DNA of 64,000 nucleotides, from positions 2,356,001 through 2,420,000 of the forward strand of contig NZ_CP011072.1 of the NCBI RefSeq assembly GCF_001190925.1. The letters run 5' to 3'. The notes under the pieces were generated by a model that did no database searches, had not been told where the DNA came from, and saw only the letters and a program-made list of their open reading frames with translations. Origin of the DNA: Azoarcus sp. CIB. GTDB taxonomy: Bacteria > Pseudomonadota > Gammaproteobacteria > Burkholderiales > Rhodocyclaceae. Both the position numbers and the translations under genes were made by a program. Below are positions 1 through 10,423 of the stretch, piece after piece (position 1 is the first letter of the stretch; each line of letters begins with the position of its first letter).

Positions 1-75
1 GCTGGCGTAGCCGGAGACGAGGGGTTTCGCGAAGCCGGTCTGCGGGTCGAACACGTCGCGCGCGCTCGTCCTCAT
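1..75 (-). CDS. N-terminus of an unidentified protein (cut by window edge)
   Basis: Only the first 25 codons are inside the window, beginning MRTSARDVFDPQTG. The ATG shares four bases (ATGA) with the stop of the Bug-protein gene just upstream on the same strand, so the two are probably translationally coupled and co-transcribed. I do not recognise the fragment, and no function can be given. Its place at the end of the transport and CoA-activation operon suggests another catabolic gene, but that is inference only. Confidence 0.6.
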   Translation of the reverse strand, partial: MRTSARDVFDPQTGFAKPLVSGYAS

Positions 76-1067
76 TCGATGCGCGCCCCCGATTCGGCGA
101 TGACCTTGGCCCATTTCGCGCTGTCCTCGCGGATCACGCGCGCAAACTCGCCCGGCGTGCTGGTCTCGACGTCGAGGCCCTGCTCGGCCAGCCGCGCCCG
201 CGTCGCCGGCAGGCTGGCGATACGCGCGAACTCGGCGTGCAGGCGCTCAACCACCGGCTTGGGTGTCGCGGCCGGAACGACGATGCCGAACCACGACGCC
301 ACCTCGAAGCCCTTCAGCCCCGCTTCGGCGGCGGTCGGCACGTCGGGCAGCACGGGCGAGCGCTTCGCGCTGCTGATCGCGAGGCCCTTGACCTTGCCGG
401 CCTTGACCTGCGGCGCGAGGACGGCGAGCGTGTCGAAGGCGAGATTGACCTCGCCGCCGAGCAGCGCGGTGACCGCGGGCGCACTGCCCTTGTAAGGCAC
501 GTGCAGCAGATCGACGCCGGTGAGACTCTTGAAGAGTTCCCCCGAGAGGTGGCACAGGGTGCCGTTGCCGCATGACGAGTAGCTGATCTTGCCCGGCTGC
601 GCCTTCGCGGTGCCGACGAGTTCCTGCAGGGAATTGGCGCTGACCGTGCCGTTCGCGGCGACGACGTAGGGCACGGACGCGACGATCGCGACCGGCGCGA
701 AGTCCTTGACCGGGTCGTAGCGCAGGTCCTTGGCGAGAGTCGGCAGGATCGTCAGCTGTCCGGCCGGGGCCAGCGACAGGGTGTAGCCGTCGGGAGCCGA
801 CTTCGCCGCGGCTTCCGCCGCGATGGCGGTGCCGGCACCCGGCTTGTTCTCGACGACAACGGGCTGGCCGAGCGCTGTCGACAGCTGTTCCGCATAGAAG
901 CGGCCGACGATGTCGGATGCGCCTCCGGGCGGGAACGCGACGATGAGCTTCAGCGGCTTGCTGGGATAGACGTCGGCATGCGCGCCGATCGACAGCAGCG
1001 AGACGACGCCGGCTGCGACGACACGGACGAGTCCGGCGCGGATATTGGTTTTCTTGTGTGCAGGCAT
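72..1067 (-). CDS. Bug/TctC-family periplasmic solute-binding protein (first of a tandem pair)
   Basis: This is the extracytoplasmic binding protein of a tripartite tricarboxylate transporter, which captures a carboxylate in the periplasm for TctAB. The 331-residue product has an N-terminal signal peptide ending near AHA. The family motif YPSKPLKLIVAFPPGGASD follows, where the glycine-rich loop contacts the ligand carboxylate, then HVPYKGSAPAVTALLGGEV and DVPTAAEAG. I chose the ATG at 1067 over an upstream TTG at 1079 because the TTG lies inside the Shine-Dalgarno-like TTGGAG. It sits 28 bp after a second Bug gene, so a recent duplication and diversification is plausible. The ligand cannot be read from the sequence. 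Confidence 0.93.
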   Translation of the reverse strand: MPAHKKTNIRAGLVRVVAAGVVSLLSIGAHADVYPSKPLKLIVAFPPGGASDIVGRFYAEQLSTALGQPVVVENKPGAGTAIAAEAAAKSAPDGYTLSLAPAGQLTILPTLAKDLRYDPVKDFAPVAIVASVPYVVAANGTVSANSLQELVGTAKAQPGKISYSSCGNGTLCHLSGELFKSLTGVDLLHVPYKGSAPAVTALLGGEVNLAFDTLAVLAPQVKAGKVKGLAISSAKRSPVLPDVPTAAEAGLKGFEVASWFGIVVPAATPKPVVERLHAEFARIASLPATRARLAEQGLDVETSTPGEFARVIREDSAKWAKVIAESGARIE

Positions 1068-1095
1068 GGATGGCTCCAAGGGATATGAATCGGGA

Positions 1096-2103
1096 TCAGT
1101 CGAAACGGATGGCGGCCTCGCGCACGACGCGGCCGTACTTGGCGTGGTCGTTGCGGATCAGCTCGGCGAACTTCTCGGGGCTGGATGAGCGCGCCTCCAG
1201 CCCCTGGGCCGCGAGCTTTTTGCGCACGGAGGGCTGGGCGGCGGCGCGCGCAATCTCCGAACTGAGGCGGGCGACGATCTCGGGCGGGGTGGCGGCGGGG
1301 ACCGCGAGGCCAAACCAGGAGGTGACTTCGAAATCCGGGTAGCCGGCTTCGGCGACGGTCGGCACCTCGGGCAGCAGGGGCGAACGCTCGCGCGACGCGA
1401 TCGCGAGCCCGCGCAGCTTGCCGCCGCGGATCTGCGGGGCGAGCACCGTCAGCGTGTCGACTGCGAGGTTCACTTCGCCGCCGAGCACCGCCGTGACCGC
1501 GGGGGCGCTGCCCTTGAACGGCACGTGCAAGATGTCGGCGCCCGTTGCGAGCCCGAACGATGCGCCGGCAAGATGGGTGATCGTGCCGCTGCCGCTCGAC
1601 GAATAGGACAGCTTGCCCGGCTGTGCTTTCGCCTGCGTCACGAGCTCCGTGAGGTTTTTCGCCCGCACGGAATCGTTCGCCGCGATGACGAGGCCGGTAA
1701 AGGCCAGCGTCGACACCGGAGCGAAGCTGCGCAAGGGGTCGAACTTGAGGTTCTTCGCGATGTGCGGCAGCACCGTCAGCTGCCCGGTCGGCACCAGCGA
1801 CAAGGTATGGCCGTCGGCCGGGCCATTGGCCACCGCTTCGGCGGCGATCGCGGTTCCGGCGCCCGGCTTGTTCTCGACGACGACCGCCTGCTTGAGCGAT
1901 TCACCGAGCGCGTCGGCATAGATGCGGGCCACCGAGTCGGCGGCGCCCCCCGGCGGGTAGGGCACGATCAGCCTCAGCGGGCGCGCGGGCCAGGTCTCGG
2001 CATGTGCCGCGAAGGGCGCACTGAGGGCGGCCAGGGCGGTCAGCGCGAGGAACGGGATGAAACGTCGTCGCGACAGCGCGCGCGGGGATTGTGATGGATT
2101 CAT
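1096..2103 (-). CDS. Bug/TctC-family solute-binding protein with Tat-like signal
   Basis: A second Bug-family binding protein of 335 residues, paralogous to its downstream neighbour. The N-terminus contains SRRRFIPF before a hydrophobic stretch and an AHA cleavage site. This fits the twin-arginine consensus and implies export in folded form, unlike the neighbour, whose signal lacks a twin arginine. Family blocks WPARPLRLIVPYPPGGAAD, HVPFKGSAPAVTAVLGGEV and EVPTVAEAG are intact. A clear ribosome site (AGGAAAGAG) precedes the ATG. It lies between the other Bug gene and an enoyl-CoA hydratase, all in one direction, so it probably belongs to the same operon as tctAB. The ligand is unknown. Confidence 0.93.
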   Translation of the reverse strand: MNPSQSPRALSRRRFIPFLALTALAALSAPFAAHAETWPARPLRLIVPYPPGGAADSVARIYADALGESLKQAVVVENKPGAGTAIAAEAVANGPADGHTLSLVPTGQLTVLPHIAKNLKFDPLRSFAPVSTLAFTGLVIAANDSVRAKNLTELVTQAKAQPGKLSYSSSGSGTITHLAGASFGLATGADILHVPFKGSAPAVTAVLGGEVNLAVDTLTVLAPQIRGGKLRGLAIASRERSPLLPEVPTVAEAGYPDFEVTSWFGLAVPAATPPEIVARLSSEIARAAAQPSVRKKLAAQGLEARSSSPEKFAELIRNDHAKYGRVVREAAIRFD

Positions 2104-2132: not shown

Positions 2133-2870
2133 TCAGCGCCCGGCGAACTGCGGCGCGCGCTTTTCGATGAAGGCTGCGATGCCCTCGTGGTAGTCCTCGG
2201 CGCTGTTCACCGCCTCGACGCGCGCGCGGGCGATCGCCGCCGCTTCCGAAGGCCCCTTCGGCAGCACCTGCCCGACGTAGTCCTTCAGCATTCCGACCAC
2301 CAGCGGCGCATTGGCGGCGATCTGCTGCGCCAGTTCGCGCGCGACGTCAAGCTGCTGGCCGAGCGGCACGACGCGATTCACGAGGCCCGCCTCGTAAGCG
2401 CGCTGCGCTGAAATCGAACCGCCAACGAGCAGCAGCTCCATCGCGACCTTGTGCGGGATGCGGGCGGCGAGCGAACTGATCAGGCCGCCGCTGTAGCCGA
2501 CCTTCGCTTCCGGGTAGGACAGCACGGTGTTGTCGGCAGCGACCGCGAGGTCCGCCATCTGCACCAGCACCAACCCGCCGCCGACCACGAGCCCGGCGGT
2601 GACGGCGATCACGGGCTTCGTCACCGGCACACCGACGCCGGGCACCGCGCGCCAGAAATCGTGCGGGATGTCGCGCAGGTCGGCGCCGGCGGTGAAGGCG
2701 CGTTCGCCGGTACCGGTGAGGATCGCGACGCGGTCGTCGCTCGCGTTGAAGCGGTGCCACGCGGCGTTGAGCTCGCGCACCACGTCGTGGTTGATGATGT
2801 TGTACTTGTCCGCGCGATCGATGGCGATTTCGGCAATGCCGTTGCGCGAGGTATACGTGACTGAGGACAT
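2133..2870 (-). CDS. enoyl-CoA hydratase/isomerase (crotonase) family protein
   Basis: A 245-residue crotonase-fold enzyme acting on an acyl-CoA thioester. The oxyanion-hole segments are visible: FTAGADLRD near residues 59-67 and GLVVGGGL near 93-100. Both positions that carry the catalytic glutamates in classical hydratases are Glu here, at SYPEAKVG (about E121) and VAMELLL (about E145). Hydratase chemistry is therefore credible, rather than only isomerase or dehalogenase activity. AAGGAG lies just before the ATG. It follows the PrdB-like gene and CoA ligase on the same strand, which suggests the ligase makes the CoA ester and this enzyme handles an unsaturated intermediate. The substrate is not identified. 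Confidence 0.9.
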   Translation of the reverse strand: MSSVTYTSRNGIAEIAIDRADKYNIINHDVVRELNAAWHRFNASDDRVAILTGTGERAFTAGADLRDIPHDFWRAVPGVGVPVTKPVIAVTAGLVVGGGLVLVQMADLAVAADNTVLSYPEAKVGYSGGLISSLAARIPHKVAMELLLVGGSISAQRAYEAGLVNRVVPLGQQLDVARELAQQIAANAPLVVGMLKDYVGQVLPKGPSEAAAIARARVEAVNSAEDYHEGIAAFIEKRAPQFAGR

Positions 2871-2898: not shown

Positions 2899-3870
2899 TC
2901 AGTTCGTCGTGGTGGCCGCGTCTAACGGCGCCACTGCCGCACGCAGGTCGCGGGCGATCAGCCGTGCGCGCTCGTTGTCGGCGCGCAGGCGTGCCAGTTC
3001 GTCGGCCGGCAGGCGGGCGGCGTTGGCGTAATCGAGTTTCCATACGGCATCGGTCGCCCATCGCAGCGGCGACTGCACGGTGGTGCGCGCCGCGGGCGCC
3101 GCTTCCAGCAGGCGCAGCGCGAGTTCCAGCGTGTAGTCCTGGGACGCCACGTCGTCGGGGCGGCCCGCGGCGTTGCCGAGCGGAAAGTCGCTGAACAGGA
3201 AGCGCGGCACGCCTGCGTACTCGACGATGTCCTTGGCGCAGCCGAGCACGACGGTGCCGATGCCGGCCGCCTCGAGCTCGCGGGCCACCAGGCTCAGGGT
3301 CTGGTGGCAGACGGGGCAGTTGGCTACCAGCAGCGCCGCATCGACGCCATCTTCGCGGCAACGGGCGACGATTTCGGGCGCATCCACGTCGAGCGTGCGG
3401 CGCTGGCTGCGGTTGGTCGGCGCGCCGTGAAAGCGCGCTGCCACGGCCCCGACCCGACCCCGCGCCACCGCCCGGCGCAGCGCCGGCAGCGGGAACCAGC
3501 AGGCGCTATCGGCCATCGACGCGTGCTTGCGGTCGATACCGACGTGGGCGATGCGCAAGTCGTGGTCGACCGCGCTGTCGCCCGAATACACCTCGTAGAA
3601 CTTCGCGGCCGCGTTGTAGGGCGCACCCGGCCCCTGCGGCCCCTTGTCGGGCTGGTACGGCGCCGCCGTCGTGACGATGGTCAGCCGGCTCGCCGACAGC
3701 GGTTTCGCGAGCGGCGCGAACGGCACCTCGGCGAAGTGTGCCCACACGTAGGGGTTGTCGTAACCCAGCGCGAGGTAATAGTCCCGCGTGCGCTCCATGT
3801 AAGCGATCGGCCGGTCGTGCGCCGGTGCGAATCCAAGGATCGCGGATTCGTCGATGTCGGCGCCCGCCAT
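2899..3870 (-). CDS. PrdB/GrdB-type reductase homologue with Cys in place of selenocysteine
   Basis: A 323-residue protein resembling the B subunits of glycine/sarcosine/betaine and D-proline reductases. The resemblance covers a central LTIVTTAA strand, a DHDLRIAHVG block, ALRRAVARGRVGAVA and then GVDAALLVANCPVCH. In PrdB the last segment reads UGTCH after a similar strand, so the selenocysteine position is occupied by Cys185 and the CxxC partner is Cys188. AGIGTVVLG after it also matches the family. The ATG overlaps the ligase stop (TGATG), indicating translational coupling, and AAGGGGG lies upstream. Family members cleave C-N bonds reductively in anaerobic clostridia. What a cysteine form does in a proteobacterial CoA-ligase operon is unknown. 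The family assignment is by eye. Confidence 0.65.
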   Translation of the reverse strand: MAGADIDESAILGFAPAHDRPIAYMERTRDYYLALGYDNPYVWAHFAEVPFAPLAKPLSASRLTIVTTAAPYQPDKGPQGPGAPYNAAAKFYEVYSGDSAVDHDLRIAHVGIDRKHASMADSACWFPLPALRRAVARGRVGAVAARFHGAPTNRSQRRTLDVDAPEIVARCREDGVDAALLVANCPVCHQTLSLVARELEAAGIGTVVLGCAKDIVEYAGVPRFLFSDFPLGNAAGRPDDVASQDYTLELALRLLEAAPAARTTVQSPLRWATDAVWKLDYANAARLPADELARLRADNERARLIARDLRAAVAPLDAATTTN

Positions 3871-5270
3871 CACGCCCCCTTCCCCACGATCTCGATCAGC
3901 TTCGTCTTCGCACCACTGCGCGGGAAGCTGCCGAAGGGCACGATCTCGACCTGCGGGCGGAAAGTGAGCAACTCACGGATGCGCTGCTCGATGCGTGCGC
4001 CGAGCGCCGGCCAGTCTGCGGTCGGGGTGTCGGCCGCGGCCTCGATGGCGAGGCGCAGCGGCGGTTCGACGCGCGGGGGCGGTGCGTCGAGGCGGATGCG
4101 CAGCTCGCCCGAGACCTGCGGACGGAACTGGCCGACCACGTTCTGGATCGCCGCCGGATACACCTTCACGCCCTTGATCGCGAGCATGTCGTCGACCCGG
4201 CCGATGATCTCCATGCGCGTGCCGAAATGGCCGCAGCCCGGGCACTCGCCGACGTGGAGGCGCAGGATGTCGCCGGTCGCATTGCGGAACGCGGGCGCCG
4301 CTTCGTACTCGAGCGCGGTGTGGACCGCCTCCCCGACCGCGCCGTCCTTCAGCTCGAGCGGCGCCTTCGTGGCCGGATCGACGAGGTCGTAGCGGAAGCA
4401 GTAGTCCTCGGCGAGGTAGTGCATCCCGTGCGAATGCTCGCTGTCGCAGGTAATCGTGCCGTTGTGCCAGGCGCCGCCGGTCGCATCGAAAACCTGCGCG
4501 CCGAAGTGCTCGCGCACGCGCTGACGGAAGGTCGGCAGGCTCGCACCGGGTTCGCCGGAGCAGTAGATGATTTCGATGCCGAGTGCGCCGACCGGCTTGC
4601 CGATCTCCTGCGGTGCCCGCTCGATCAACTGGTTCACCATCGACGGCGTCGCGAACAGCACGCGCGGACGTGTCAGTTCGATGTAGCGCAGGATCTTCGG
4701 CACCCCACCCTCCGCCCCGACCGCCACCGGCCGCGCCCCGTAAGCTTCGAGCGCCTGCACGTAGGTGATGCCGGCAAGCCACAGCGACAGCCCGAACGCA
4801 TGGAAGGTGGTGTCGCCCGGACGAATGCCGGCGGCGCGGAACATGCGGCCGAGCACCTTGTAGGTGATGTCGAGATCCTTGCGCGAGAACACGTAGAAGG
4901 TCGGCGTGCCGGTGGTGCCGGAGGTCGCGGCGAGATGGATCGCGTTCTCGGGGGCGGTCGTCAGGTGCAGCCCGAGCGGATGCCCGTAGCGCTGAAGGGA
5001 GGCATCCTGCGAGTCGCGATGGCGCGCCTTGTCGAGGAAGGCCGGCAGGCGGCGGAAGTCGTCGAGCGTGCGGATCGCCTCGGGCGAATCGATGCCGGCC
5101 TCGAGGAAACGCTGGCGGTAGTAGTCCTCGTTGCCCCACACGTAGCGGATCTGACGCTTGAGCTTGTCGAAGCGGCGGGTATTGAGGACGGCGAGGTATT
5201 CGGCGGGGTCGCGTGTGGGCACGTCGAAGTCGTGGAGCGCGGCATTGGCACGCGGCGGATGGATGGTCAT
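3870..5270 (-). CDS. phenylacetate-CoA ligase (PaaK)-family AMP-forming ligase
   Basis: A 466-residue member of the adenylate-forming PaaK family, which activates a carboxylic acid (often aromatic) to its CoA thioester using ATP. Visible motifs are YRQRFLEAGI in the N-terminal helix region, the phosphate loop SGTTGTPTFYVFSR (about 117-130), YCSGEPG, the CPGCGHFG cysteine pair and GRVDDMLAIKGVKVYP leading into the C-terminal AMP-binding lobe. The reading frame is open far upstream, but I place the start at MTIHPPRA because the upstream part overlaps tctA antisense to nothing recognisable. A GGAG lies 12 bp before this ATG. It overlaps the next gene by one base. The substrate is presumably whatever the adjacent TTT system imports. 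Confidence 0.88.
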   Translation of the reverse strand: MTIHPPRANAALHDFDVPTRDPAEYLAVLNTRRFDKLKRQIRYVWGNEDYYRQRFLEAGIDSPEAIRTLDDFRRLPAFLDKARHRDSQDASLQRYGHPLGLHLTTAPENAIHLAATSGTTGTPTFYVFSRKDLDITYKVLGRMFRAAGIRPGDTTFHAFGLSLWLAGITYVQALEAYGARPVAVGAEGGVPKILRYIELTRPRVLFATPSMVNQLIERAPQEIGKPVGALGIEIIYCSGEPGASLPTFRQRVREHFGAQVFDATGGAWHNGTITCDSEHSHGMHYLAEDYCFRYDLVDPATKAPLELKDGAVGEAVHTALEYEAAPAFRNATGDILRLHVGECPGCGHFGTRMEIIGRVDDMLAIKGVKVYPAAIQNVVGQFRPQVSGELRIRLDAPPPRVEPPLRLAIEAAADTPTADWPALGARIEQRIRELLTFRPQVEIVPFGSFPRSGAKTKLIEIVGKGA

Positions 5271-5335
5271 GACGGATCGGCTCCGGAATGGAAACGGGAT
5301 GGGGAAATGCGTGTTTGCGGCGAGGAACGGTGGCG

Positions 5336-6838
5336 TCAGCCTTCGGCGAACGCGACCTCGCGGGTCGCGCGCAGGCGCGGCAGGGCCATGACGACGATGA
5401 GGCCGAGGGCCAGGAGCAGCAGCGCCAGGCTCAGCGGACGCGTCACGAACACCGTCGGATCGCCGCGCGACAGCAGCATCGCCCGGCGCAGGTTCTCCTC
5501 CAGCATCGGCCCGAGCACGAAGCCCAGCAGCAGCGGCGCGGGCTCGCAGCGCAGCTTGATGAAGAGGTAGCCGAGCAGGCCGAAGGCGACGGTCAACAGC
5601 ACGTCGAACATCTGGTTGTTCACGCTGTACACGCCGATGCAGCAGAACAGCAGGATCGCCGGATACAGCATCCGATACGGCACCGCGAGCAGCTTCACCC
5701 ATACGCCGATCAGCGGCAGGTTCAACAGCAGCAGCATCGCGTTGCCCACCCACATGCTGACGATGACGCCCCAGAAGAGCTCGGGCCGCTCGCTCATCAC
5801 CTGAGGGCCGGGCACGATACCGTGGATCATCATCGCGCCGATCATCAGCGCCATCACCGCATTCGCAGGCAGGCCCATGACCAGCAGCGGGATGAAGGAG
5901 GTCTGCGCGCCGGCGTTGTTCGCCGACTCCGGCCCGGCGACGCCTTCGATGGCGCCCTTGCCGAAGCGCGACGGATCCTTCGCCAGTCGCTTCTCGACCA
6001 TGTAGGACGCGAACGAGCCCAGCATCGCGCCGCCGCCCGGCAGCACGCCGAGCAGCGAACCGAGCGCGGAGCCGCGCAGCACCGGCTTCCATGAGCGGCG
6101 GTAATCCTCGCGCGACGGCAGGATGCGCCCTACCCGCAGCGCCGCCACGTCGCGCCGTTCGTCGCGTTCGAGGTTCGCGATGATCTCGCCGATGCCGAAG
6201 ATGCCCATCGAGATCACGACGAAGCTGATGCCGTCGGCAAGCTGCGGCAGGCCGAAGGTAAAACGCTCCTCGCCCGAATTCACGTCGACACCGACGAGAC
6301 CCAGCAGCAGCCCCGCGAGCGTCATCGCCACCGCCTTGAGGATGTCGCCTTGCGCCAGCACTACCGCGGCGACGAGGCCGAGCACCATCAGCGCGAAGTA
6401 TTCCGCCGGCCCGAATTTCAGCGCGAAGGCGGCGAGCGGGGTCGCGGCCACGGCGACGACCAGCGTCGCGACGGTGCCGGCGAAGAAGGAGCCGATCGCC
6501 GCGATGCCGAGCGCGGCGCCCGCGCGGCCCTGCTTCGCCATCGCATGGCCATCGAGGCAGGTGACTACCGACGACGACTCGCCTGGCATGTTCACGAGGA
6601 TGGCCGCCGTCGAGCCGCCGTACTGCGCGCCGTAATAGATGCCGGACAACATGATCAGCGCGGACGTCGGCGGCAGGCCGTAGGTCACCGGCAGCAGCAT
6701 CGCGATCGTCGCGACCGGCCCGAGCCCCGGCAGCACGCCGATCAGCGTGCCAAGCGTCACGCCGGCGAAGCAGTACAGCAGGTTCGTCCAGGTGAAGGCG
6801 GCGTCGACACCGATCGCAAGATGAGACAGCAGTTCCAT
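5336..6838 (-). CDS. tctA: tripartite tricarboxylate transporter large permease TctA
   Basis: The large membrane subunit of a TTT transporter, 500 residues with about a dozen hydrophobic segments. The family hallmarks GTLIGVLPGLGPV (about 31-43), SGIYYGAQYGGSTAAILVN and GVLPGGGAMLGSF are all present. It works with TctB and a periplasmic Bug protein in secondary, ion-driven uptake of carboxylates. A GTG three bases upstream of the chosen ATG is an alternative start. tctB ends only 11 bp upstream, so the two are co-transcribed. The window encodes just this one tctA for three Bug proteins. Confidence 0.95.
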   Translation of the reverse strand: MELLSHLAIGVDAAFTWTNLLYCFAGVTLGTLIGVLPGLGPVATIAMLLPVTYGLPPTSALIMLSGIYYGAQYGGSTAAILVNMPGESSSVVTCLDGHAMAKQGRAGAALGIAAIGSFFAGTVATLVVAVAATPLAAFALKFGPAEYFALMVLGLVAAVVLAQGDILKAVAMTLAGLLLGLVGVDVNSGEERFTFGLPQLADGISFVVISMGIFGIGEIIANLERDERRDVAALRVGRILPSREDYRRSWKPVLRGSALGSLLGVLPGGGAMLGSFASYMVEKRLAKDPSRFGKGAIEGVAGPESANNAGAQTSFIPLLVMGLPANAVMALMIGAMMIHGIVPGPQVMSERPELFWGVIVSMWVGNAMLLLLNLPLIGVWVKLLAVPYRMLYPAILLFCCIGVYSVNNQMFDVLLTVAFGLLGYLFIKLRCEPAPLLLGFVLGPMLEENLRRAMLLSRGDPTVFVTRPLSLALLLLALGLIVVMALPRLRATREVAFAEG

Positions 6839-6849
6839 CACAGCACCAC

Positions 6850-7308
6850 TCAGGCAGGGCCGACCGGCAGGGGCACGCCCAGGCCGTAGGCGAACACCGC
6901 CACGCCGAAGGCCGACAGCACGGCGCTCAGCCCCAGCAGTTCGCCGAAGCGCACTTCGCGATGCGCGTGGCCGCTCACCAGCGTCAGCGCCACCGTCGCG
7001 AGCACGAGGCCCAGTTGCTGCACGACGAGTGCGAACACGATGACGCCCGCCCCGACCAGCACCGCCGGCCGCAACGCGAAGCCGTCGTCCTGGGCCGGCT
7101 CGTCATCCGTCACGTGCACGCTGCGAATCAGGACGATCGCACCGAGCACCGCGAGCACGGCACCCAGCAGCAGGGGGAAATAACCGGCCCCCATGCGCAT
7201 CGCCGACCCCAGCGGATACCCGGATGCGGTATGGCTTCCGGCCAATCCGAGAAGAATGAACAGAAGGCCTGCGAACGAATCCCGACGATTGAGAATCCTG
7301 ATTTTCAT
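6850..7308 (-). CDS. tctB: tripartite tricarboxylate transporter small permease TctB
   Basis: The small membrane subunit of the TTT transporter, 152 residues with four predicted membrane segments: FAGLLFILLG, FPLLLGAVLAVLGAIVL, LVGAGVIVFALVVQQLG and LSAVLSAFGVAVFAYGLG. The motif MRMGAGYFPLLLG is typical of the family. The reading frame stays open upstream, but the start at MKIRILNRRDSF gives the usual family length and topology. It is the first gene of the minus-strand transport and CoA-activation operon and faces the aconitase-X operon across a 343-bp control region. Confidence 0.88.
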   Translation of the reverse strand: MKIRILNRRDSFAGLLFILLGLAGSHTASGYPLGSAMRMGAGYFPLLLGAVLAVLGAIVLIRSVHVTDDEPAQDDGFALRPAVLVGAGVIVFALVVQQLGLVLATVALTLVSGHAHREVRFGELLGLSAVLSAFGVAVFAYGLGVPLPVGPA

Positions 7309-7651: not shown

Positions 7652-7747
7652 ATGACCGCTGCAGAAAACCCCGACAAGCCGAATAGAGCCGCACCCGATC
7701 CCGCCGATCCTCTCATCGCTGCCGCCGTCGTCGGAGCGGCGTTCTGA
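7652..7747 (+). CDS. possible 31-residue peptide coupled to the aconitase-X gene
   Basis: A short open frame starting MTAAENPDKPNRAAP and ending in a small hydrophobic tail (IAAAVVGAAF). It has a good ribosome site, CAGGAG, nine bases before its ATG. Its stop overlaps the ATG of the large aconitase-X subunit as TGATG, so ribosomes leaving it would re-initiate there. It is too short to be recognised and is not a missing piece of the enzyme, because the downstream protein already has a typical family N-terminus. It may be a translated leader controlling the enzyme, or a small protein. I infer translation only from the ribosome site and the overlap. Confidence 0.45.
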   Translation: MTAAENPDKPNRAAPDPADPLIAAAVVGAAF

Positions 7748-9000
7748 TGCGGCTCAGTGCACTCGAACAGGCGATGCTCGCGGGCGAACACGGCGAAGCC
7801 GTCGCCGAGGCCATCGCCTACCAGATCCGCGTCGGCGAATTCTTCGGCGCAGAAGACTTCGTCCCGATCACCAACGCCCACATGATGGGCGACATCGAGG
7901 TCATGGGCGACAGCGGCCTCGCGCACCTCGGCTGCTTCCGCAGCAAGGGCGCGCGCTGCCGCGTGCCGGTGACCACCAACGCGCGCTGTGCCGACTTCGC
8001 CCATGCCGCGCGACTCGGGCAAGACGAAGAGGAAATAGCCAAGGAAAGGCGCCTGATCGCGCACCTGCAGGCGATGAACGTCGTCACCACTGATACCTGC
8101 ATCAACTACCAGACGGTATATCAACCCCACCTCGGCGAGCACGTCGCATGGGGCGACACCGGCACCGTGATCTACGCCAATTCGGTGTTCGGCGCGCGCA
8201 CGAACTTCGAGAGCGGCCCCGCGGCGCTTGCCGCCGGCATCACCGGCCGCACGCCGCGCTACGGCTTCCACCTCGACTGCCATCGCCGCGGCACCTTCCG
8301 CATCGTGGTCGACACCGATCTCGACGACCTCGCCGACTGGGGCGCGCTGGGCAAGCTGGCGGGCGAGTTCCGCCAGGACTACTACGCCGTCCCGGTCTTC
8401 GAAGGCCTGCGGCGCACGCCGACGGCGGACGAACTGAAGCATCTCGGCTGCGCGCTCGCGAGCTACGGATCGATGGGCATGTACCACATCGTCGGCGTCA
8501 CGCCCGAAGCGCCTGACCTTGCAACGGCCTTTGGCGGCACGCCGCCGGAGCCCGCCCTGCGCATCGGCCGTGCCGAACTCGACCGCGTGTATGGCGGCTA
8601 CGACGTGTCGGACCCGCACGCGACGCTGGTGGTCTTCTCCGGTCCGCAGCTCTCGCTCTTCGAACTGAAGGCGCTCGCGGAGCGCTTCGCGGGCCAGCGC
8701 GTACATCCCGGCTGCCAGGTGTTCGTCACCACCGGCCGCGGTCCGGCTCGCGACGCCGAGGCACTCGGCTACCTCGCGACGCTGCGCGAGGCCGGCGTCA
8801 CGATCCTGGAAGGGGTGTGCTTCTACATCCTGCAGAACCTCTCTGAGATGCGCAGGCGCAACGGCTGGCACAACCTGATTTCAAACTCGGCCAAGCTCGT
8901 GAACATCATCGGTGCGCATCGCTTCAACACCATCCTGCGGCGCACCGACGAGTGCGTCGCCGCGGCGCTCACCGGACGTGTGACGGGCGCGCAATCGTGA
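7747..9000 (+). CDS. aconitase-X large (catalytic) subunit, DUF521 family
   Basis: A 417-residue catalytic subunit of the aconitase-X superfamily. Characterised members dehydrate cis-3-hydroxy-L-proline in bacteria or mevalonate 5-phosphate in archaea, using an Fe-S cluster. The opening LSALEQAMLAGEHGEAV is typical. Conserved blocks follow: TDTC (C118), GEHVAWGDTGTVIYANSVFG, GARTNFESGPAALAAGITGR, EGVC (C358) and NSAK with DECVAAALTGR (C403). Those three cysteines occupy the positions expected for cluster ligands. The start overlaps the leader ORF stop, and the end overlaps the small-subunit start (GTGA), so the complex is made from one mRNA. The substrate is undetermined, and proximity to TTT binding proteins suggests a hydroxy acid. 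Confidence 0.9.
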   Translation: MRLSALEQAMLAGEHGEAVAEAIAYQIRVGEFFGAEDFVPITNAHMMGDIEVMGDSGLAHLGCFRSKGARCRVPVTTNARCADFAHAARLGQDEEEIAKERRLIAHLQAMNVVTTDTCINYQTVYQPHLGEHVAWGDTGTVIYANSVFGARTNFESGPAALAAGITGRTPRYGFHLDCHRRGTFRIVVDTDLDDLADWGALGKLAGEFRQDYYAVPVFEGLRRTPTADELKHLGCALASYGSMGMYHIVGVTPEAPDLATAFGGTPPEPALRIGRAELDRVYGGYDVSDPHATLVVFSGPQLSLFELKALAERFAGQRVHPGCQVFVTTGRGPARDAEALGYLATLREAGVTILEGVCFYILQNLSEMRRRNGWHNLISNSAKLVNIIGAHRFNTILRRTDECVAAALTGRVTGAQS

Positions 9001-9419
9001 GCGAGCGACAGCACATCGCCAGCCTGCGTGTCGCACGCGCGGTCGGAGAGCCGGTCGAGGGCCTGGCGCTCGTCTCCACCGAAGGCTTCTCGCCGCGCTA
9101 CGACCTCGACCGCTGGACCGGCCTGATCACGAAACCGGGCCACAAGCTCGAAGGCCGCAGCATCGTCGACCGCATCTGCTTCTTCCCTACCGCCAAGGGC
9201 GGCATCGCCGCCGGCTGGGCCTTCCCCGACATTGCGGCCAAGAAGCTCGCGCCGCGCGCGCTGGTGTTCGGCGTCACCAACCCCGTCATGGTGCAAGGCG
9301 CCGCGTTTGCCGGCATCACGCTCACCGAAGGCTGGGAACCGGATGCCCTCGCGCTCGTGCGCAACGACGACCTCGTGCGCATCGACCCGGCCGAACGCCT
9401 GATCCACATCTATCGCTGA
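8997..9419 (+). CDS. aconitase-X small (swivel) subunit, DUF126 family, altered active-site loop
   Basis: A 140-residue swivel subunit partnering the preceding DUF521 protein. It starts at a GTG overlapping that gene's TGA. Family features are GEPVEGLALVSTEGFS, the H-x-L-x-G-x-S stretch HKLEGRSI and the final GITLTEGW. The loop that in relatives reads roughly GKGS-x-x-GSY, carrying a serine expected in catalysis, is here TAKGGIAAGWAF (about 65-76), with glycine in both serine places. Either the subfamily uses a different residue or the enzyme handles a different substrate. The comparison is from memory of family sequences, not from an alignment. Confidence 0.82.
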   Translation: MSERQHIASLRVARAVGEPVEGLALVSTEGFSPRYDLDRWTGLITKPGHKLEGRSIVDRICFFPTAKGGIAAGWAFPDIAAKKLAPRALVFGVTNPVMVQGAAFAGITLTEGWEPDALALVRNDDLVRIDPAERLIHIYR

Positions 9420-9436
9420 ATTCCATGGAGCCCACC

Positions 9437-10423
9437 ATGAGCCCCTCGCTGCACTTCCTCCGCCGCCTCCTGCCGGTCGCTGCCGCACTCCTCACGGCCG
9501 CCGTCCCCACGAGCGTTCCCGCCGCCGACACGCCCTACCCCGCGCAGCCGATCAAGCTCGTCGTGCCCTTCCCGCCGGGCGGTCCGACGGACATCGTCGC
9601 GCGCCCCTTCGCCGAGGCGCTAACGCGCAGCCTCGGCAAGCCGGTGGTGATCGAGAACCGCGGCGGCGCGGGGGGCAACGTCGGTGCCGACAACGTCGCG
9701 AAAGCGAATCCGGACGGCTACACGCTGCTCCTCGGCACGGTCGGGACGGCCGCAATCAACCCCGCGCTCTACGCCCGGCTCAGCTACGACCCGCGCAAGG
9801 ATCTCGCGCCCGTCGCCATCCTGGCCGCCGCGCCGGTCGCGCTCGTCGCGCATCCGTCCGTCCCCGCCAACACCGTGGCTGAACTGCTCGCACTCGCCGA
9901 CCGCCAATCGCTGCGCTTCGGCACTGCCGGCAACGGCACACCGGGCCACCTGACCGGCGAGATGTTCAAGCAGGCGAGCGCCGCCCCGCTCACCCACGTC
10001 CCCTACAAGGGCAGCGCCGCAGCGCTGCAGGATCTGCTCGGCGGCCACATCGAACTGGCGTTCGATCCGCTCCAGTCGGTGTTGCCGCACGTCCGCGCCG
10101 GCAAGCTCAAGGTCATCGCGGTCAGCTCGGCCGAAGCGTCGCCCGTGCTGCCGCAGGTCCCGACCTTCGCGCAGGCCGGCGTGAAGGTCGAAAGTACCGC
10201 CTGGTGGGGCCTGTTCGCCCCCGCCGGCACGCCGCGTCCGATCGTCGATCGGCTCGCCGCCGAACTGCAGGGAGCGGAACAGAGCGGCGACGTGCGCCAG
10301 CTCGAGAGCATCGGTCTCACCCTCAGGCAGATCGCCCAGCCCGCCGCCCTCGACACCTTCCTTACCGCCGAAAGCACCAAATGGGCGAAGGCCGTCAGGG
10401 ACTCGGGCGCGAAGGTCGACTGA
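9437..10423 (+). CDS. Bug/TctC-family solute-binding protein (third in the window)
   Basis: A 328-residue periplasmic Bug-family protein with a signal peptide (LLPVAAALLTAAVPTSVPAA). Ligand-loop motifs YPAQPIKLVVPFPPGG, HVPYKGSAAALQDLLGG and QVPTFAQAG are present. I prefer the ATG at 9437 to the one at 9425 because the GGAG formed by the first ATG codon acts as its ribosome site, the same arrangement as in the first Bug gene. It lies 17 bp after the aconitase-X small subunit, in the same operon. It probably binds the aconitase-X substrate or a precursor and delivers it to the divergently encoded TctAB. That pairing is an inference. Confidence 0.93.
   Translation: MSPSLHFLRRLLPVAAALLTAAVPTSVPAADTPYPAQPIKLVVPFPPGGPTDIVARPFAEALTRSLGKPVVIENRGGAGGNVGADNVAKANPDGYTLLLGTVGTAAINPALYARLSYDPRKDLAPVAILAAAPVALVAHPSVPANTVAELLALADRQSLRFGTAGNGTPGHLTGEMFKQASAAPLTHVPYKGSAAALQDLLGGHIELAFDPLQSVLPHVRAGKLKVIAVSSAEASPVLPQVPTFAQAGVKVESTAWWGLFAPAGTPRPIVDRLAAELQGAEQSGDVRQLESIGLTLRQIAQPAALDTFLTAESTKWAKAVRDSGAKVD

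Follow-up and report, generated by a model that had tools for sequence, protein, structure and literature searches.

Sequence comparison firmly places the protein encoded at 2899-3870 on the minus strand of the window (the whole 64,000-nucleotide stretch of DNA analysed here), which we call Q, in the GrdB/PrdB superfamily, with cysteine on the selenocysteine site. As judged from its relatives, Q, a CxxC protein of 323 residues, is a member of a separate Cys/Sec family and not a lone Cys copy of PrdB. Going beyond the sequence-only reading made earlier of this DNA, the relatives and a gene remnant probably tie Q to organosulfur (mercapto-acid) catabolism, and we tentatively regard Q itself as a redox enzyme in an accessory operon that would take up and break down a sulfur-containing carboxylic acid. 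The features on which the argument draws are the following.

1..66 in the window and about 24 bases further left, minus strand: remnant of a 3-mercaptopropionate-type dioxygenase (last ~28 codons)
72..1079, minus strand: second TctC solute-binding protein (254.1 bits; scanned as 72-1067)
1096..2103, minus strand: TctC, solute-binding protein of a TTT transporter (237.6 bits)
2133..2870, minus strand: enoyl-CoA hydratase/crotonase (ECH_1, 152 bits)
2899-3870, minus strand: Q
3307..3318, minus strand: C185-P-V-C188 of Q (C185 codon 3318-3316, C188 codon 3309-3307; C185 is the Sec-equivalent site)
3870..5273, minus strand: PaaK-like CoA ligase (Pfam and NCBIfam matches)
5336..6841, minus strand: TctA transporter subunit (550.5 bits)
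6850..7299, minus strand: TctB transporter subunit (73.4 bits)

Protein Q and its place in the GrdB/PrdB superfamily

Q occurs in a single copy in the window genome (a single contig of 5.26 Mb, from the genus of Aromatoleum tolulyticum), and its open reading frame begins with ATG at 3870. The reading of Q as a lone pseudogene was rejected, given the open frame and the 93% identity to the A. tolulyticum copy.

The homology to PrdB and GrdB claimed at first reading, for which an HMM search had been named as the check, is borne out by profile comparison. The Pfam GRDB profile (PF07355) matched Q at 23.6 bits against a cutoff of 22, a narrow pass that covers the C-terminal part of the profile (Q residues 39-183 on model positions 204-346 of 347), and the best NCBIfam match, the PrdB model TIGR04483, gave 83.8 bits (E 1.2e-23) without reaching its cutoff of 300; four NCBIfam glycine/sarcosine/betaine reductase models scored 31-40 bits, each below its cutoff. 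When 50 Q-family rows were compared with 6 PrdB sequences by hhalign (probability 99.8%, E 4e-29, 30% identity over 211 columns), residues 51-269 of the 323 were aligned, the N- and C-terminal parts being extra, and CPVC of Q fell on the UGTC/CGTC column of PrdB, so that the earlier placement of C185-P-V-C188-H at the selenocysteine site stands.

Q thus resembles PrdB in the U/C-x-x-C-H at the same site and differs from it in the low identity, the score below the equivalog cutoff, the additional terminal parts, the lack of PrdA and the lack of the glycine-rich MGGGG loop. With GrdB, GrdF and GrdH (PF07355) it has in common the C-terminal part of the profile and the UxxC site, but it is without the N-terminal half, is accompanied by no GrdE-type gene and stays below the specific cutoffs. 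In place of MGGGG the Q family has a PTNRS loop, present in the five close members compared (two of them Sec forms) and absent from the three distant Sec forms, two PrdB and one GrdF compared. Across the 50-row Cys alignment (A1: Q of the window and 49 of the 66 Cys loci), four positions of the loop (P151, T152, R154, S155) never vary and N153 hardly does; many residues besides CxxCH are invariant, which suggests a specific pocket.

In a tree of 47 rows, 35 close Q-family members, including five Sec forms, make up one branch (support 100/99) apart from PrdB and GrdF, although the tree program flags long branches in the outer groups. The Sec label requires four changes on this tree, their direction not being settled. 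What had been called a cysteine version of PrdB/GrdB is therefore a homologue with Cys, as stated, but one from a separate Cys/Sec family.

Partner subunits were sought with PF09338 (PrdA/GrdE), which detected both control records carrying PrdA/GrdE and gave no match in any of 30 family genomes: that of the window, 25 others with close Q and four with distant TGA forms. The earlier statement that there is no A or C subunit holds to this extent, that is, for PrdA/GrdE-type genes throughout the genome and for the neighbourhood. Glycine and proline reductases use a Schiff-base carbonyl. With no PF09338 gene, there is no visible source of such a carbonyl in the Q genomes; its use by the two reductases is discussed in the available part of PMC10838667. 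That Q is a true D-proline reductase subunit with Cys is scarcely credible: PrdB is its best NCBIfam match, and a PrdB relative on a Paraclostridium plasmid also has Cys, but the equivalog cutoff is far from reached, the clade is separate, PrdA/GrdE-type genes are missing from all 30 genomes and the scanned genes of the operon include none recognisable as a proline gene. To the extent that sequence can decide, this candidate is refuted.

Cysteine and selenocysteine at residue 185

Among the best 80 of 158 confirmed relatives, Cys is encoded in 66, and in the other 14 an in-frame TGA coincides exactly with the C185 codon, fractions that apply to the close family only; C188 and H189 are kept in all 80. 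TGA stands at the aligned position also in the distant forms L003, L004, L106 and L107, whereas the window copy has TGC. The selenocysteine-specific factor SelB was found above cutoff in 14/14 genomes with a close TGA form and 6/6 with distant TGA forms, against 8/25 with a close Cys form (4/12 and 4/13), A. tolulyticum being entered once and the genome G341, where a distant TGA form accompanies a close Cys form, being placed with the TGA group. No SelB above cutoff was found in the window genome (best score 192.9 against 242.25). The association of SelB with the TGA form (Fisher p 2.1e-5) falls to p 0.13 once Reyranella-type forms count as one, and the statistic is weak because the TGA forms stem from few lineages: 13 of the 14 close ones are from Reyranella, Reyranellaceae or near-identical Alphaproteobacteria sequences. 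The exact coincidence of the TGA stop with C185 remains the strong point, and together with SelB in 14/14 genomes it indicates that C185 is the active residue of a family in which Cys and Sec alternate.

A hairpin 3' of the TGA has a CGTGA loop common to Reyranella and the distant form L003, with different stem letters, and fold z-scores behind the codon average -1.24 in 18 TGA forms and +0.17 in 67 Cys forms; these scores, from mononucleotide shuffles and with near-copies included, are weak singly.

Several observations on individual sequences may be recorded here. The close Cys form and the distant TGA form of G341 (L102, L109) reside in one genome, and two distant TGA forms, L003 (G038:C5) and L109 (G341:C42), lie ~2.5-2.7 kb from selB in their respective genomes. 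In the PrdB-like sequence of the Paraclostridium plasmid (L125:4001-4564), Cys replaces Sec; it is not annotated as a gene, the gene table being incomplete. An open reading frame of a Reyranella-like locus (L046:2622-2999) corresponds to the C-terminal portion of Q that follows the TGA.

An AlphaFold2 model of Q built from A1 (mean pLDDT 87.1, pTM 0.88) places C185 between a strand (178-182) and a helix (186-201), with CxxC at the helix start. Redox CxxC sites often sit between a strand and the start of a helix. Neither phmmer nor profile searches of the PDB gave a credible solved relative, Foldseek with the model returned no match at E <= 0.001, and the best VIA-align match (Z 8.8 over 143 residues) was to a LacI-type domain; what both structural comparisons showed were common Rossmann-like arrangements only. 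A non-redox role, in which C185 would be the nucleophile of a hydrolase- or lyase-type reaction or CxxCH a metal or cofactor site, could draw on this dearth of informative solved structures and on the operon genes scanned, among which no redox partner gene was recognised; we consider it quite improbable, as Sec at C185 in 14/80 relatives with C188 in 80/80 speaks for a redox or strong-nucleophile role. Reductive or thiol chemistry, the general suggestion of the sequence-only reading, would remain the best general guess.

The operon and the neighbourhoods of relatives

On the minus strand of the window the genes follow one another in the order TctB, TctA, PaaK-like ligase, Q, enoyl-CoA hydratase, TctC, TctC. 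The enoyl-CoA hydratase and carboxylate transporter noticed earlier were matched as listed above, and the identities predicted for transporter, ligase and crotonase are firm. Among solved sequences at E <= 1e-10, the counterparts of the ligase are three phenylacetate-CoA ligases and 2-hydroxyisobutyryl-CoA synthetase (n=4). The start codon of Q shares one base with the stop codon of the ligase gene (TGATG), and because of this overlap the translational coupling proposed earlier is plausible. On the opposite strand, at 7747-10423, lies an AcnX pair resembling cis-3-hydroxy-L-proline dehydratase, below the model cutoff, followed by another TctC.

Close relatives of Q are almost all from Pseudomonadota and often stand beside acyl-CoA genes. 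Neighbours were counted by tblastn with fixed probes, within 4 kb and on the same strand, in 81 loci (the window and L006-L085), because generic ORF picking is unreliable in GC-rich loci, where shadow ORFs masked some PaaK and CoA-transferase genes. A CoA-activating gene is present in 39 of the 81 loci (CoA-transferase III in 28, with some matches merely 32-37% identical to the probe, PaaK-like ligase in 11, both together in none), a crotonase in 18 and TctC in 15 (29 on either strand); 17 loci, some of them on short contigs, have none of the probed families within this distance. A 3-mercaptopropionate-type dioxygenase, counted if the match covered at least 45% of the probe, occurs in 13 loci, and all 13 also have a CoA-activating gene. 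Its density is 22.5/Mb near Q versus 1.5/Mb beyond 4 kb, with the farther flank of the same loci as the only background; since the probes were picked from recurring neighbours, part of this enrichment was built in, and the figures describe the loci more than they test them blindly.

These counts bear on the possibility that Q is a general small-molecule thiol-disulfide reductase, or a redox regulator acting against thiol stress, with no step in a pathway. Exchange of Sec and Cys is usual in thiol oxidoreductases, the CxxC/UxxC stands at a helix start in the predicted model and 42 of the 81 loci are without a same-strand CoA-activating gene within 4 kb. The linkage of CoA-activating genes and crotonases to Q in about half of the loci, however, and the many invariant residues besides CxxCH make such a role unlikely.

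The dioxygenase is linked to Q in several arrangements, including Q, CoA-transferase, dioxygenase (for instance, L010 and L014), CoA-transferase, crotonase, dioxygenase, Q, DctP (L041, L043, L053) and, in L059 and L081, TctBA, PaaK, Q, crotonase, TctC, aldolase II, dioxygenase and a gene for a 529-aa rhodanese-type protein. Compared with the PDB, three of the dioxygenases scored 199-248 bits to 3-mercaptopropionate dioxygenase chains (3uss, 4wvz) and 193-259 bits to 4qma and 6xb9 (deposited as cysteine dioxygenase type I), versus 35-50 bits to mercaptosuccinate dioxygenase and at most 35 bits to the cysteine dioxygenase type 1 group. A strong match to this dioxygenase (168-430 bits) was obtained in 13 of 20 Q genomes outside Aromatoleum, the copy in G452 having an internal stop codon; of the other seven, which have no full-length gene, five gave no match and two a weak one (23 and 81 bits).

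The window operon has no intact dioxygenase gene, the stub being the only trace in its genome. This stub, between the last TctC and the rhodanese gene, is an open stretch that matches the last 28 residues (68% in the window genome, 75% in A. tolulyticum) and ends at its own stop; directly left of the window, a four-domain rhodanese of 529 aa is encoded (L098:10380-11969; stub and rhodanese region to 12072). Most simply read, the operon formerly included a full dioxygenase gene, in an order as in L059 and L081. No full-length 3-mercaptopropionate-type dioxygenase was detected in any of the 17 Aromatoleum genomes tested; with seven of the 20 other Q genomes also lacking it, the dioxygenase is not obligatory.

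Within these 17 genomes, Q is intact in two, the window genome and A. tolulyticum. In a third member of the genus (G013; L128, G013:C97, 853-2899), Q is internally deleted, with two short pieces left, whereas its flanks survive: ligase at 97.5% (over the part present), crotonase at 100%, one TctC at 98% and rhodanese at 95%. This genome keeps a longer dioxygenase remnant than the window genome. A sample of the class gave a Q-family match in 8/369 genomes, the window genome included, with the close form in five. The Q operon is, by this distribution, accessory and decays readily.

Other loci are less uniform. A gene flanked by two TctC genes in L007 has its best matches, below cutoff, in alkanesulfonate monooxygenase models; four Hyphomicrobium-type loci have an amidase gene two genes upstream of Q; L045 has ATC-hydrolase family and dehydrogenase genes beside Q, and L118 an EamA transporter and a two-component system. 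In two Mesorhizobium loci (L045:9146-9637 and L073) the ATC-hydrolase family gene is directly upstream of Q. Loci such as L045 and L118 would point away from sulfur or nowhere, and the substrate may well differ between branches of the family. Six open reading frames (L046:2622-2999, L013:5914-7329, L010:10834-12219, L118:8113-9327, L115:5796-6281 and L121:8074-8805) had no Pfam match; the one in L010, probably a shadow ORF, lies opposite to the matches for CoA-transferase and dioxygenase.

Proposed role of Q and known systems

Because of the gene order in several arrangements and the dioxygenase stub in the window, we consider it fairly probable that the substrate of the Q operon is an organosulfur compound. 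The TTT transporter would import a sulfur-containing acid, and a CoA-activating enzyme (PaaK-like here, a type III CoA-transferase in many relatives) and the crotonase would process the acyl-CoA. C185, replaced by Sec in some relatives, would act as the nucleophile and C188 as the resolving thiol, such that an S-S or C-S bond is cleaved reductively and a free mercapto-acid released, which in some relatives would then be oxidized by the nearby 3-mercaptopropionate-type dioxygenase; in the window genome, where the dioxygenase is reduced to a stub, rhodanese alone would remain. The order of the steps is conjectural, and thioredoxin or glutathione may be the electron donor. As to the chemistry, we put forward with reserve that C185/C188 release a thiol reductively, which is the likeliest of the options considered; the present evidence does not separate S-S from C-S cleavage.

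Alternatively, Q might act like PrdB/GrdB and reductively split a C-N bond, or a bond to another heteroatom, in an amino or N-substituted acid; CoA activation would then replace the pyruvoyl group, and the sulfur genes would be incidental neighbours. The family offers a direct precedent, C-N cleavage with a partner subunit, and a GrdB-like pair has been proposed, from operon expression and genomics, to cleave the C-F bond of fluoroacetate (available part of PMC10838667); the ATC-hydrolase family gene before Q in two loci and the amidase gene in the four Hyphomicrobium-type loci would fit as well. Nevertheless, with no Schiff-base partner in any of the 30 genomes, the glycine-rich loop of PrdB replaced in the Q family, and the dioxygenase both linked to Q in several arrangements and present as a stub in the window operon, we regard C-N cleavage as unlikely.

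The organosulfur reading finds parallels in two characterized gene clusters, as far as the accessible portions of the reports describe them: a cluster for a disulfide-acid (DTDP) in Advenella, comprising CoA-transferase III, acd, mdo, ahpD-like, tctC and tctC (PMC5373536), and one for a thioether-acid (TDP) in Variovorax, with mdo, act, acdA and Ech genes (PMC6370202). Both resemble the Q loci in combining a 3-mercaptopropionate dioxygenase with a CoA-transferase, and further in TctC (Advenella) or Ech (Variovorax). Their steps, however, use LpdA, Mdo, Act/SucCD, Acd and Ech, and those portions describe no GrdB/PrdB-like protein; the reliance of published disulfide-acid breakdown on LpdA, and of thioether-acid breakdown on Ech enzymes, counts against Q in a sulfur-acid role (PMC5373536; PMC6370202). 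Our literature search, mostly without subscription journals, yielded among the top titles listed no report tying the Q family to mercapto-acid catabolism and, for GrdB/PrdB-like or 'selenoprotein B family' proteins, literature on rumen Synergistota only.

The sequences themselves have long been catalogued. According to the accessible text of the reports, PrdB-like UxxC selenoproteins named 'proline reductases' are found in Sargasso Sea metagenomes, Anaeromyxobacter and Geobacter (PMC1088965; PMC1794560), and since 2005 the Sargasso Sea set has comprised 42 such proteins and one Cys homologue (PMC1088965). By description they are like Q in being PrdB-like UxxC proteins outside Stickland fermenters, and unlike it in being named after D-proline reduction, with no sulfur linkage described in that text. 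In addition, two plasmid-borne Q relatives are annotated as 'glycine/sarcosine/betaine reductase selenoprotein B family protein'. The term undescribed, applied to this system at first reading, is consequently apt for the function but not for the sequences; what is new is the sulfur-linked gene context of the Q family.

A bolder proposal, which we deem improbable, is that a GrdB/PrdB-fold enzyme reductively cleaves the C-S bond of CoA-activated thioether acids, with the CoA thioester as electron sink in place of the pyruvoyl cofactor and Cys and Sec versions interchanging across Pseudomonadota. If this were true, many 'proline reductases' outside Stickland fermenters could be organosulfur enzymes. 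The natural Cys and Sec versions, at ~65% identity, provide material for asking what Sec gives an enzyme. With gene order and a gene remnant linking a branch that has no partner subunits to mercapto-acid breakdown, such proteins gain a concrete hypothesis, and the sulfur-acid reading would separate Q-type proteins from amino-acid fermentation.
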